Source: Hymenobacter siberiensis
GTDB taxonomy: Bacteria > Bacteroidota > Bacteroidia > Cytophagales > Hymenobacteraceae
Assembly (NCBI RefSeq): GCF_018967865.2
Contig: NZ_JAHLZY020000001.1
Location: 1,550,001 to 1,614,000, forward strand
Reading direction: 5' to 3'
DNA: 64,000 nt
This document shows positions 1 to 9,157 of the stretch, one piece after another. The position numbers and the translations under genes are program-made. The notes beneath the pieces are model-generated. The model did not search any database. It was not told the origin of the DNA and saw only the letters and a list, made by a program, of their open reading frames with translations. Within the stretch, counting starts at the first letter, position 1. Every line of letters starts with the position of its first letter.

Positions 1-1
1 G

Positions 2-352
2 GAAGACTACATTAAACTGTCGGTGCGCGACGTGAAGGATGCCGTGGTCCCGGCCAAGGAGGAGCCCGGCATAGTGCTTATGAACCCGCCCTATGGCGAG
101 CGAATAGGGGAGGAGGCCGAAATGACGGCGCTGTATAAGACGATTGGCGATTCGCTGAAGACGAATTTTCAGGGGTACAATGCGTTTGTGTTCACCGGGA
201 ATCTGGAGGCGGCGAAGAGCATCGGGCTGAAGCCGGCGCGGCGCGTGCCGCTGTTTAATGGGCCGATTGATTGCCGGCTGCTGAAGTATGAGCTGTACCG
301 GGGGTCGAAGCGGGAGCCGCGGGCGGCGCAGCCAGAAAACCTCACCCCCTGA
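2..352 (+). CDS. C-terminal part of THUMP/RlmL-type class I SAM-dependent rRNA methyltransferase (5' truncated by window edge)
   Basis: The frame is open from the window edge and ends at TGA 350-352. The visible part carries the N-P-P-Y catalytic motif of N-adenine/N2-guanine methyltransferases (VLMNPPYGERIGEE, about 30 residues after the edge) and the family's C-terminal segment ending near KYELYRG. This fits the methyltransferase half of THUMP-domain RNA methylases of the RlmL/YpsC group, which use SAM to modify 23S rRNA; the exact target base is not deducible. The last residues (about ENLTP) and the stop codon are supplied by the left arm of the inverted repeat at 338-380, so the repeat has replaced or extended the native C-terminus. 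The N-terminal THUMP domain is outside the window. Confidence 0.8.
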   Translation, partial: EDYIKLSVRDVKDAVVPAKEEPGIVLMNPPYGERIGEEAEMTALYKTIGDSLKTNFQGYNAFVFTGNLEAAKSIGLKPARRVPLFNGPIDCRLLKYELYRGSKREPRAAQPENLTP

Positions 353-507
353 CCCCCTCTCCAAAAAAGAGGGGCACCGGCATTGCTCGGATGTAAATTT
401 TGATGAGTTTTTGAATTGAGCTTTCAGCCTTTTTAAGGCTGAAAGCTCAAAATCAGGGCAGGTCCGGTGCCCCCTCTTTTTTGGAGAGGGGGTCAGGGGG
501 TGAGGTT
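338..507. repeat. Inverted-repeat element with internal stem-loop (DUF559-associated palindrome)
   Basis: Two arms of about 43-44 nt (338-380 and 464-507) are inverted copies differing by one G insertion; the arm core reads CTCACCCCCTGACCCCC. A second perfect hairpin lies between them (GAGCTTTCAGCC at 418-429 pairing with GGCTGAAAGCTC at 437-448). A third copy of the right arm occurs at 962-999 in direct orientation, with a few substitutions. The whole unit can fold as a long cruciform or serve as a bidirectional terminator between the methyltransferase and the next ORF. Confidence 0.85.
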
Positions 508-999
508 GACGTCAGGCGGTACTACCTTACCCGTATGGAAACCCCGCCCAAACTCAGCGGCCCGCAGGAACACATTTACACCACCGACCCCCATACTTGG
601 GACAAGCGGCTAAAGGCCTACGCCCGCGAAAACCGCAAAGCCCCCACGCCCGCCGAAAATCTGCTCTGGCAGCAACTGCGCGGCAATAAGATAGGTGCCA
701 AATTCCGCCGCCAGCACGCCATCGACTTTTTTATCGTCGATTTCATCTGCGTGGCTGCCAAGCTCACCATCGAGCTCGATGGCGAAATTCACGCTGCTCC
801 CGAGAACGCTGAATACGACCTCGGCCGTACCTTCACGCTAACTGAATTAGGCTACTGCGAACTGCGTTTCACCAACCAGCAAGTGCTAACCAGCTTAGAC
901 GCAGTCTTAGCCCAAATTACTAAATTCCTAAAAGACAACCTTATAGAACGACCGTCTGACTCCCCCTCTTTTTTGGAGAGGGGGCCGGGGGGTGAGGTG
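338..999 (+). mobile_element. Putative DUF559 endonuclease cassette flanked by palindromic repeats
   Basis: A single DUF559 (Vsr-like, restriction-endonuclease fold) coding module at about 535-960 is bracketed by the inverted repeat 338-507 on its 5' side and by a direct copy of the right arm (962-999) on its 3' side. Both right-arm copies are read in the same frame, as LERGSGGEV before and FLERGPGGEV after the module. The nuclease module shows the family signature PAENLLW, the FRRQ motif, IVDF and IELDGE, so the catalytic acidic residues appear intact. The cassette sits between a methyltransferase gene, whose last codons it supplies, and recQ, to which it is fused in frame. That it moves, and that DUF559 acts on the repeat, are inferences. 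Confidence 0.55.
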
Positions 1000-3237
1000 A
1001 CCCGCTCGAACAACATGCCCGAATTAGCCCCCGCTCCGCCCCTCGCCGCCGCCCGCCAGGCCCTGAAACGGTACTACGGCTACGACAATTTCCGCCCCAT
1101 GCAGGGCGACATCATCGAGCACATTCTGGCCGGTAAAGACACCGTCGTGCTCATGCCCACCGGTGGCGGCAAGTCCGTCTGCTTCCAGATTCCGGCCGTC
1201 GTTTCCGATGGCACCTGCATCGTCGTATCTCCCCTCATCGCCCTGATGAAGGACCAGGTGGAAGCCCTGAAAGCCAACGGCATCGCGGCCGCCTACATCA
1301 ACAGCAGCGTGGGCCAGAACGAGGCCAATGACATTGCCCGCGCCGCCACCGGCGGCTACCTCAAGCTGCTCTACGTGAGCCCCGAAAAACTGCTGAGCGA
1401 GGGCTTTATGCAGTTCCTGAACCGCATCAATATCAGCCTCTTCGCCATCGATGAGGCCCACTGTATCTCAAGTTGGGGCCACGATTTCCGACCCGAGTAC
1501 ACCAAGCTGGGAACCCTGCGCACGCACTTTCCCAACACGCCCATCATCGCCCTCACGGCCACGGCCGACCGTCTCACCAAGCGCGACATCATCACCCAAC
1601 TCAACCTGCGTGAGCCTCGGGTGTTCTTATCGAGCTTTGACCGGCCCAACATCAACCTCAACGTGCGCCCCGGCCAGGACCGGGTGGGCTCGGTCATCGA
1701 CTACATCGGCCGGCACCCCGAAGACCCCGGCATCATCTACTGCCTCTCGCGCAAAACCTGCGAAACCATTTCCGCCAAACTCGTGGCCAAGGGCATCAAG
1801 GCGGCGCACTACCACGCCGGCCTCACGCCTTTGCAGCGCGGCAAGGCCCAGGAGGCTTTTTTGCAGGATGATATTCAGGTGATTGTGGCTACCATCGCCT
1901 TCGGCATGGGCATCGACAAAAGCAACGTGCGCTGGGTGATGCACTACAATCTGCCCAAAAACATCGAGGGCTACTACCAGGAAATCGGCCGGGCCGGGCG
2001 CGACGGCGCCCCCAGCACCGCCATCCTGTTCTACAGCTTCGCCGACGTGATGCAGATGCGCGAGATGGTGACCAAGGATGTGCCCGCGCGTCAGGCCCAG
2101 CTCAACACCGCCAAGCTCGAGCGCATGCAGCAGTTTGCCGAAGCCGCCAGCTGCCGCCGCAAAATTCTGCTCAACTACTTCTCCGAAACCCTGCCCCAGG
2201 ACTGTGGCAACTGCGACATCTGCCGCAACCCGCCCACCACCTTCGACGGCACGCTCATTGCCCAGAAAGCCCTGTCGGCCGTGTTCCGCAGCCGGGAGAA
2301 AGTCGCTATCAATCTGCTGATTGACATTCTGCGCGGCATGCGCAACCAAGCCGTGCTGCAAGGCGGCTACGACCAGATAAAAACCTACGGCGCGGGCTCC
2401 GACCTGCCCTACCTCGACTGGTACAGCTACGTGCACCAGATGCTGAACGACGGCCTGTTCTACATTGCCTACGAGGAAGGCTACGCCCTGAAAATCACCG
2501 AGCGCGGCCACGAAGTATTGAAGGGCCAGCTCGCCCTGCCGCTCAAGAAGTTTCAGGTGGCCGAGAAGGCCGAGAAGACCACCCGCGCCGGCAAAAAAGC
2601 CGCCAACGCCGTCGCCACTGCCGCCTTCGGCACCCCCGAAGCGCAGCTGTTCGACAAGCTCCGCAAGCTGCGCAAGCAGATTGCCGACGAGCAGGGCGTG
2701 CCGCCCTACGTGGTGTTCTCCGATGCCACGCTGCAGGAAATGGCCGCCGAGCGCCCCGTCAACCGCGTGGGCATGCTGGGTATTTCGGGCGTGGGCATGA
2801 AGAAGTTCGAGACCTACGGCGAGAGCTTCATTCGCCTCATTCTGGAAGATGGCGGCGGGGCCGTACCCTCCGATTCCGACAACATGTTCAGCGAGCCGCG
2901 CCCCCGTATTGCCGTGGCCGAAAAGCCCGTGAGCGACTCCGAGGATGCCACCATCCAGTTCCACCAGATTGGCCTCACCCCCGAGGACATTTCCGAGCGC
3001 CGCGGCCTGGCCCTGAGCACCGTGAAAACCCATCTCTACAACGCCTACGCCAAAGGCCGCGAGCTGCGCATCCACGACTTCACCACTGATGCCGAGCTGG
3101 CCGAAATCTTCACCGCCCGCGCCCAGCTCGGCGGCGACCCCACGCTGCGCGACCTGTTCGACCACCTGCGCGAGAAATACGACTACTTTCAGCTACGCAT
3201 GGCCGCGCTGTATCACAGGCGTTTGCGCGGCCAGTAA
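535..3237 (+). CDS. recQ: ATP-dependent DNA helicase RecQ, ORF fused in frame to an upstream DUF559 module
   Basis: One continuous frame runs from ATG 535 (open back to TTG 481) to TAA. Codons 535-960 encode the DUF559 nuclease-like module. RecQ proper probably starts at ATG 1015, giving about 740 residues. From that start: Walker A PTGGGKS near residue 50, DEAH box (IDEAHCISSWGHDF), TATA motif III, GRAGRDG motif VI, the RecQ zinc-binding Cys set (CRRKILLNYF, then CGNCDICRNP), winged helix, HRDC-like region (VFSDATLQEMA) and a C-terminal helix-turn-helix extension. RecQ is a 3'-5' DNA helicase in recombination and repair. Whether a DUF559-RecQ polypeptide is made or RecQ starts internally at 1015 cannot be settled by reading. 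A LexA-like regulator follows downstream. Confidence 0.9.
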   Translation: METPPKLSGPQEHIYTTDPHTWDKRLKAYARENRKAPTPAENLLWQQLRGNKIGAKFRRQHAIDFFIVDFICVAAKLTIELDGEIHAAPENAEYDLGRTFTLTELGYCELRFTNQQVLTSLDAVLAQITKFLKDNLIERPSDSPSFLERGPGGEVTRSNNMPELAPAPPLAAARQALKRYYGYDNFRPMQGDIIEHILAGKDTVVLMPTGGGKSVCFQIPAVVSDGTCIVVSPLIALMKDQVEALKANGIAAAYINSSVGQNEANDIARAATGGYLKLLYVSPEKLLSEGFMQFLNRINISLFAIDEAHCISSWGHDFRPEYTKLGTLRTHFPNTPIIALTATADRLTKRDIITQLNLREPRVFLSSFDRPNINLNVRPGQDRVGSVIDYIGRHPEDPGIIYCLSRKTCETISAKLVAKGIKAAHYHAGLTPLQRGKAQEAFLQDDIQVIVATIAFGMGIDKSNVRWVMHYNLPKNIEGYYQEIGRAGRDGAPSTAILFYSFADVMQMREMVTKDVPARQAQLNTAKLERMQQFAEAASCRRKILLNYFSETLPQDCGNCDICRNPPTTFDGTLIAQKALSAVFRSREKVAINLLIDILRGMRNQAVLQGGYDQIKTYGAGSDLPYLDWYSYVHQMLNDGLFYIAYEEGYALKITERGHEVLKGQLALPLKKFQVAEKAEKTTRAGKKAANAVATAAFGTPEAQLFDKLRKLRKQIADEQGVPPYVVFSDATLQEMAAERPVNRVGMLGISGVGMKKFETYGESFIRLILEDGGGAVPSDSDNMFSEPRPRIAVAEKPVSDSEDATIQFHQIGLTPEDISERRGLALSTVKTHLYNAYAKGRELRIHDFTTDAELAEIFTARAQLGGDPTLRDLFDHLREKYDYFQLRMAALYHRRLRGQ

Positions 3238-3526
3238 AGTGAGGTAAGCTTTCGCTTGCCGTTTGAATTCAGGTCGTTATCAGAGCTCAAAAAGCCTGAT
3301 AAATCAACCACATAAAATCTGCGAACCTCCGCGTTACCCTCGGCGAACCTCCGCGAGAAAAAGCAAAGGCGGGGAATTGGGAGCCGAAAGACAAATTGCT
3401 CGACGCTAAAGTGGTGGGCAGAAATTTATTAGCTAAGTGAATTAGTAACTTCGCACTTGCGTTGCTAACTTCACCAGCCGAATCCGCGTTGAATCCAACG
3501 CCACTCCCGGCTGCCGCCTCCCACCG
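3238..3526. promoter_or_regulatory. recQ-repressor intergenic region with possible operator at 3442-3468
   Basis: The first half holds a degenerate dispersed repeat (two copies of GAACCTCCGCG at 3322-3354; a related ACCTCCGCG pair lies at 41849-41870). About 60 nt before the next ATG is an imperfect palindrome, TTAGTAAC (3442-3449) and GTTGCTAA (3461-3468), separated by 11 nt with one mismatch in eight. The position and symmetry would suit an autoregulatory operator for the downstream LexA/CI-like repressor; this is inference. Confidence 0.35.
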
Positions 3527-9111: not shown

Positions 9112-9157
9112 AAGCAGTCCGTCATGCTGAGCGCCATTGAAGCATGACGGACTGCTT
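9112..9157. terminator. Hairpin between convergent genes
   Basis: A perfect 16-bp stem (AAGCAGTCCGTCATGC at 9112-9127; complement 9142-9157) with a 14-nt loop containing TGAGCGCCATTGAA. It lies between the convergent hydrolase and metallopeptidase genes. The GTCATGC...GCATGAC core is shared with the larger REP-like palindromes elsewhere in the window, so it may be a shortened member of that family doing terminator duty. Confidence 0.65.

Follow-up and report, generated by a model that had tools for sequence, protein, structure and literature searches.

Related systems

Small enzyme genes that lie between dispersed palindromes, often arranged as inverted pairs, are known from the REPIN-RAYT systems (REPtrons and TIRtrons; REPIN, repetitive extragenic palindromic [REP] doublet forming hairpins; RAYT, REP-associated tyrosine transposase), in which each type of enzyme has its own family of repeats. 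Here we describe a similar arrangement in a 64,000-nucleotide (nt) stretch of Hymenobacter siberiensis DNA (contig NZ_JAHLZY020000001.1, positions 1,550,001 to 1,614,000; "the window" denotes this whole stretch), where a small DUF559 nuclease gene upstream of recQ is bracketed by the arms of a dispersed palindrome. RAYT enzymes are HUH (Y1) tyrosine transposases, whereas the enzyme here is a PD-(D/E)XK nuclease with the DUF559/Vsr fold. Furthermore, a reading of the three arms (338-380, 464-507, and 962-999) reveals no GTAG/CTAC tag, which also differs from REPIN-RAYT. A preliminary description of the window had drawn the parallel to REPs and RAYTs with a Vsr-like nuclease in the place of the transposase. 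The organization and the fold bear this out, but the arms lack GTAG, and in a Pfam scan of the open frame (E 0.001) the nuclease part matches only PF04480 (DUF559), the Vsr family model not being reported. The same scan finds RecQ domains besides PF04480, and no Y1 transposase.

Other described enzymes and repeats are also relevant. The fold of the window nuclease is that of Vsr and of I-Bth0305I, an EDxHD homing endonuclease to which its catalytic domain is related. However, I-Bth0305I is a mobile intron protein according to the PDB, while the gene considered here is free-standing and lies between palindromes. Vsr and Caulobacter VsrA, the latter containing a DUF559 domain, share the fold, but these proteins are tied to cytosine methylation, and the link observed here is to palindromes. 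Pfam still names DUF559 as a domain of unknown function. Among the repeats, the CGTC-tagged REPs come closest: according to a 2013 survey (PMC3733652), these families seem to lack a dedicated transposase and occur in Bacteroidetes too. CGTC REPs are reportedly most frequent in Alphaproteobacteria. The window arms, however, are not CGTC-tagged, and the CGTC-like repeats of the genus bracket GIY-YIG genes. Within a literature search that had most subscription journals outside its scope, no title or abstract tied DUF559 or GIY-YIG genes to REPs, and no paper contained both "GIY-YIG" and "repetitive extragenic palindromic". By this comparison, it is the enzyme that differs, while the organization is REPtron-like. 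The best reading of the results that follow is that DUF559 nucleases are the cognate partners of REP-like families, organized like REPIN-RAYT around an unrelated enzyme.

DUF559 genes of the genus mostly lie between inverted repeats

A DUF559 match is present in 51 of the 61 genomes of the genus. With weak and partial matches excluded, there are 95 full-length matches, 92 of which were used as loci; two of these are too short, leaving 90 that could be tested. The test compared the 450 nt to the left of the domain with the 450 nt to its right and required an inverted repeat with an alignment score of at least 20 (for the phylum-wide and diverse samples below, at least 18). Such repeats flank 79 of the 90 loci and none of 408 shifted windows of the same loci, and by this test terminal inverted repeats, a trait of insertion sequences and miniature inverted-repeat transposable elements, are present. 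Since loci of one family have common arms, a cross-locus null gives a high rate (255/720 at score 20); consequently, reliance was placed on the shifted windows and on a control family, the cold-shock genes (PF00313), of which only 3/30 are bracketed, by eye all by CGTC-type palindromes and none by DUF559-type arms. GIY-YIG genes were considered as the negative control and rejected, 23 of 30 genus loci being bracketed, and the cold-shock family was substituted.

Bracketing is also seen beyond the genus. A diverse sample that includes other phyla (80 loci, six too short) gave 54/74 flanked loci compared with 9/517 shifted windows. However, this sample is biased because the query proteins have repeat-coded tails, and a Bacteroidota sample was therefore drawn, in which the flanked share is lower. 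It comprises 118 genomes, 61 with DUF559, and its loci are 29 of 30 initial and 60 of 67 further strong matches (two of the 89 too short), four matches of G000, the window's genome, and G042 being left to the genus set. Inverted repeats flank 27 of 72 standalone loci and 0/286 shifted windows; inverted or direct repeats flank 49/72 and 5/286, respectively. Loci within long open frames are flanked in 3 of 15 cases. Some Bacteroidota genes (L367, L378, L431, L439, and others) lie between long direct repeats (scores above 150) rather than inverted ones.

The arm of the window is itself dispersed. Its 23-nt core, with up to three mismatches, has 45 copies in the genome compared with none for the reversed pattern, and the window holds three matches to the arm pattern compared with a mean of 0.01 in shuffles; a chance palindrome was rejected on these counts. 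On contig C1, 43 arms form 15 facing pairs, 10 spaced 91-398 nt and five back to back (26-28 nt), plus 13 solo arms. Being paired and dispersed, the arms are REPIN-like.

Each nuclease clade has its own repeat

There are just two PF04480 matches in the H. siberiensis genome, the window gene and a gene in locus L002, and both sit between inverted palindromes, which belong to two different families. The palindromes around the L002 gene read CTCCCCTCC..GGAGGGG and carry a GGGGTGGTTG tail. In what follows, A denotes arms of the L002 type, B those of the window type, and C close variants of B; nuclease clades (a, which includes the L002 gene, and b, which includes the window gene) and arm types were set by simple motifs in a script. 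Across the 79 flanked loci, all 52 of clade b are flanked by B or C arms (40 B, 12 C) and 26 of the 27 of clade a by A arms; the sole exception, L057, is an A cassette nested within B arms. The pairing holds at 29/29 plus 19/19 loci (48/48) in the 16 genomes where the two clades occur together. Arm and nuclease distances are correlated (Mantel r 0.72, p 0.001), and at 56 loci the arm is nearer to that of the nearest protein relative in another genome than to the other DUF559 arms of its home genome, the reverse being true at four. Thirteen loci whose flanks match form one site cluster, which is located between flotillin-like and DNA-repair-ATPase-like genes (by eye, in five of the 13) and carries clade a in eight genomes and clade b in five; the arms match the clade in 12 of the 13 by script, the 13th being L057. 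Given that either clade occurs with its own arms at one site, and that the pairing holds within single genomes, the arms follow the nuclease rather than the site or the genome. This pairing in relatives, in which every branch of the enzyme has a palindrome of its own, suggests joint spread of the nuclease and its repeats.

The number of repeats shows the same specificity. The median number of A repeats is 20 in the 25 genomes with clade a and 0 in the 36 without it (rho 0.78), and that of B repeats is 21 in the 39 genomes with clade b and 1 in the 22 without it (rho 0.64), while neither family shows a trend with the clade of the other (rho 0.14 and 0.00). After four arms per gene are subtracted, the p values are 7e-7 (A) and 7e-4 (B). 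The copy-number correlation proposed as a check in the preliminary description is thus found, each repeat family tracking only its own nuclease clade.

The nuclease is conserved and under purifying selection. The window protein matches PF04480 with 98.7 bits over profile positions 2-108 of 109, 8 of 14 checked residues are invariant in 92/92 copies, and the medians per site of the ratio of nonsynonymous to synonymous divergence (dN/dS) are 0.06-0.22. Be it selfish or domesticated, as the preliminary description put it, the cassette with its low dN/dS and conserved sites is closer in appearance to RAYTs that are maintained vertically than to a rapidly moving selfish element.

The locus ahead of recQ

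The features of the window locus are as follows.

2..352, + strand: 3' end of a methyltransferase gene (UPF0020/RMKL-like; open reading frame [ORF] list, Pfam), with its stop within the left arm
338..380, + strand: left arm of the palindromic element, B-type, tail CCTCACCCC pointing outward (repeat scan, genome copies)
416..450, no strand: inner hairpin in the spacer, 16-nt arms at 416-431/435-450 (repeat scan)
464..507, - strand: right arm, an inverted copy of 338-380 (repeat scan)
338..507, no strand: REPIN-like unit of 170 nt, two inverted arms around the spacer (folding, dispersed copies)
535..957, + strand: DUF559 nuclease gene (PD-(D/E)XK, Vsr-like, clade b), domain at 607-930; gene end uncertain, as the frame continues
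962..999, - strand: third arm, read as FLERGPGGEV in frame (repeat scan, ORF list)
1015..3237, + strand: recQ, the downstream host gene, its frame shared with the nuclease (ORF list)

The arms at 338-374 and 471-507 (37 nt) are 100% complementary and separated by 96 nt; by eye, CACCGG at 375-380 and CCGGTG at 464-469 lengthen them to 43/44 nt with one bulged base. The third arm (962-998) has 95% identity to 470-506, making it a direct repeat of 464-507 and inverted relative to 338-380. Folded as single-stranded DNA, 338-507 gives -76.2 kcal/mol (z -15.5), and no Rfam family is found in window positions 1-3300 at gathering scores. The methyltransferase ORF ends at 352, and a single frame is open from 481 to 3237, encoding MERGSGGEV, DUF559, FLERGPGGEV, and then RecQ. 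The most likely starts, judged from the sequence, are ATG 535 for the nuclease and ATG 1015 for RecQ. All of the parts that the preliminary description had listed around the ORF, namely, the inverted repeat, inner hairpin, third copy, and stop in the left arm, are present, as are the LERGSGGEV-type peptides read from the right copies in frame with nuclease and recQ.

The cassette ahead of recQ had been singled out in that description, together with the proposal that relatives be searched for empty sites and the caveat that all of them might carry a fixed fusion without repeats. In fact, a full-length DUF559 domain lies in frame ahead of recQ in only 11 of 61 genomes, one of which, G036, has it at a contig edge; G012, G022, and G058 retain remnants. 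When 30 of 60 recQ matches were used as loci, eight without DUF559 had the methyltransferase 77-161 nt upstream of recQ and no repeat between; these empty sites of eight relatives are too diverged to place the insertion point. The spacers between domain and RecQ are 81, 84, 87, or 96 nt, all multiples of three, so a kept frame is mildly favored, and the reading through into recQ is a consequence of stop-free arms. A DUF559-RecQ fusion protein is possible from the sequence, but stops precede recQ in 3 of the 11 genomes, inside the domain in G029 and G046 and just after it in G042. A recQ-specific fusion was rejected as the main story, since the 92 DUF559 loci fall into 29 site clusters. The arrangement ahead of recQ is read as one old insertion retained in part of the genus.

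The DUF559 copies at the recQ site have a near-constant 3' part and a differing 5' part (53% and 84% identity, in two pieces), as noted at L125 of genome G022. The pattern looks like recombination between cassettes.

Turnover of repeat sites between strains

Thirty of the 45 arms of G000 were compared with 30 of the 40 arms of G029, a genome of the same species. Twenty-four of the 30 G000 loci align to a G029 locus, two of them one-sidedly. In one such match, the arms of L013/L023 (G000) are 398 nt apart, and L304 (G029) has a single back-to-back palindrome. In G029, a site read as carA-carB holds a B-type pair (L319); in G000, it holds a GIY-YIG gene flanked by CGTC-type arms (L251), and the end of the upstream gene also differs between the two. 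At G000 position 983963, a B pair is found where G029 has a CGTC-type pair. As judged from these alignments, such repeat sites do turn over between strains. L296 was considered as strain-specific and rejected, being present in both genomes.

GIY-YIG genes and CGTC-type repeats

At score 20, 23 of the 30 GIY-YIG loci of the genus (L233-L262) are bracketed; the palindromes are by eye mostly CGTCATGCTGAGC-type (CGTC-type), and none of the 30 loci has a DUF559-type tail. Among small GIY-YIG loci in 35 distant genomes (30 loci less three in long frames and one too short), 11/26 lie between inverted repeats at score 18; one of the distant loci, in Xanthomonas, has CGTCATTCCCGC-type arms.

Tandem GIY-YIG genes are also seen. 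G090 has eight in about 3.1 kb (C1:170852-173946), about 410 nt apart, and further tandem genes with regular spacing occur in G083 (C1:229870-230843) and G062 (C50 and C16), a pattern suggestive of joint amplification of gene and repeat. In the window, CGTC-type arms lie at 9120, 11874/11967, 13509/13602, 31859/31937, and 38020/38089, with 10 matches compared with 0.78 expected and four facing pairs 69-93 nt apart.

Interpretation and alternatives

That DUF559 nucleases and palindromes are associated is virtually certain. The preliminary description's proposal of a DUF559-REP cassette is partly upheld by bracketing in the genus, weaker bracketing in Bacteroidota at large, and the 45 copies of an arm that might have been absent elsewhere in the genome; it requires amendment in that there are several repeat families, each bound to its own nuclease clade. 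It is probable, given this pairing, that the nuclease acts on its own palindrome, and mobilization of the repeats by the nuclease has about even standing as a further step. We somewhat favor the statement as a whole, namely, that a small DUF559 nuclease gene and its own REP-like palindrome family together form a cassette whose repeats the enzyme would mobilize. In this model, the nuclease would recognize its cognate palindrome as a hairpin, cruciform, or duplex and would nick or cut it; repair or replication from another copy would then spread the repeat and, less often, the cassette with the gene. The chemistry would be homing-like and the organization RAYT-like, with one enzyme gene, inherited largely vertically, serving a population of non-autonomous repeats.

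Several results weigh against this model. Flanking repeats are missing at 11/90 genus loci and 23/72 phylum loci at the thresholds used, and bracketing is not unique to DUF559, since GIY-YIG genes are bracketed by another repeat. The copy-number tests ignore shared ancestry among the genomes. Six genomes without clade a have more than five A repeats (among them G006 with 30, G055 with 18, and G010 and G060 with 12 each), four without clade b have more than five B repeats (among them G024 with 53, G008 with 34, and G039 with 12), and two clade-b genomes have only one B match each; enzyme loss would explain the repeat-rich genomes without a matching nuclease. The loci occupy few conserved sites, suggesting that recent movement of the gene is rare, and the comparison of G000 with G029 gave no clean empty site with a target duplication. 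An internal stop is present in 5 of the 92 nuclease copies, the clade-a copy has dN close to dS within the species (on few changes), and the nuclease activity is a prediction.

An unlikely alternative that nevertheless accounts for some of these points is that the neighborhood is passive: REP-rich intergenic spots tolerate docking, and small accessory nucleases are kept there without a functional link. The confinement of 92 loci to 29 conserved clusters, the bracketing of GIY-YIG, another small nuclease family, and the finding that one site may hold different elements in two strains would all be expected. However, a passive neighborhood leaves unexplained both the match of arm and clade within single genomes (48/48) and the clade-specific link to copy number, and it does not fit the cold-shock genes, which are seldom bracketed (3/30).

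Somewhat less likely still is a host enzyme, a Vsr-like nuclease of repair or palindrome processing that guards the cell against its own REPs or against deamination and mobilizes nothing. Such a function alone would not account for the gene lying between copies of the repeat on which its product would act. Moreover, genomes without the nuclease tend to have few such repeats, not more, and a PADLOC search matches L002 only weakly (two hits) and the window protein not at all. Least likely is hitchhiking, in which a RAYT or other transposase elsewhere moves the palindromes with the nuclease gene as cargo: an arm-gene-arm unit is how a cargo-bearing element should look, and RAYTs move, or are believed to move, the REPs whose partners are known (PMC3733652), but a single transposase would need to track the nuclease clade in every genome, and the arms as read here have no GTAG tag.

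Implications

Short palindromic repeats are common in bacteria, and a candidate enzyme is known only for those linked to RAYTs; CGTC REPs seem to lack one (PMC3733652). A tentative extension of the cognate-nuclease model, held with less confidence than the model itself, is that small single-domain nucleases, from superfamilies that include homing endonucleases, serve the REPs for which no transposase is known: DUF559/Vsr-like enzymes for palindromes with CCCCTC-type stems and GIY-YIG enzymes for CGTC-tagged ones, each clade driving only its cognate repeat through cutting and repair copying. If true, this would constitute a second route to REP populations besides HUH transposition, and if cutting and repair are the route, a separate kind of system. 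The clade-matched pairing of nuclease and repeat would provide directly testable enzymes for REP families and a possible role for DUF559, with the genomes that carry both clades serving as built-in controls of specificity.
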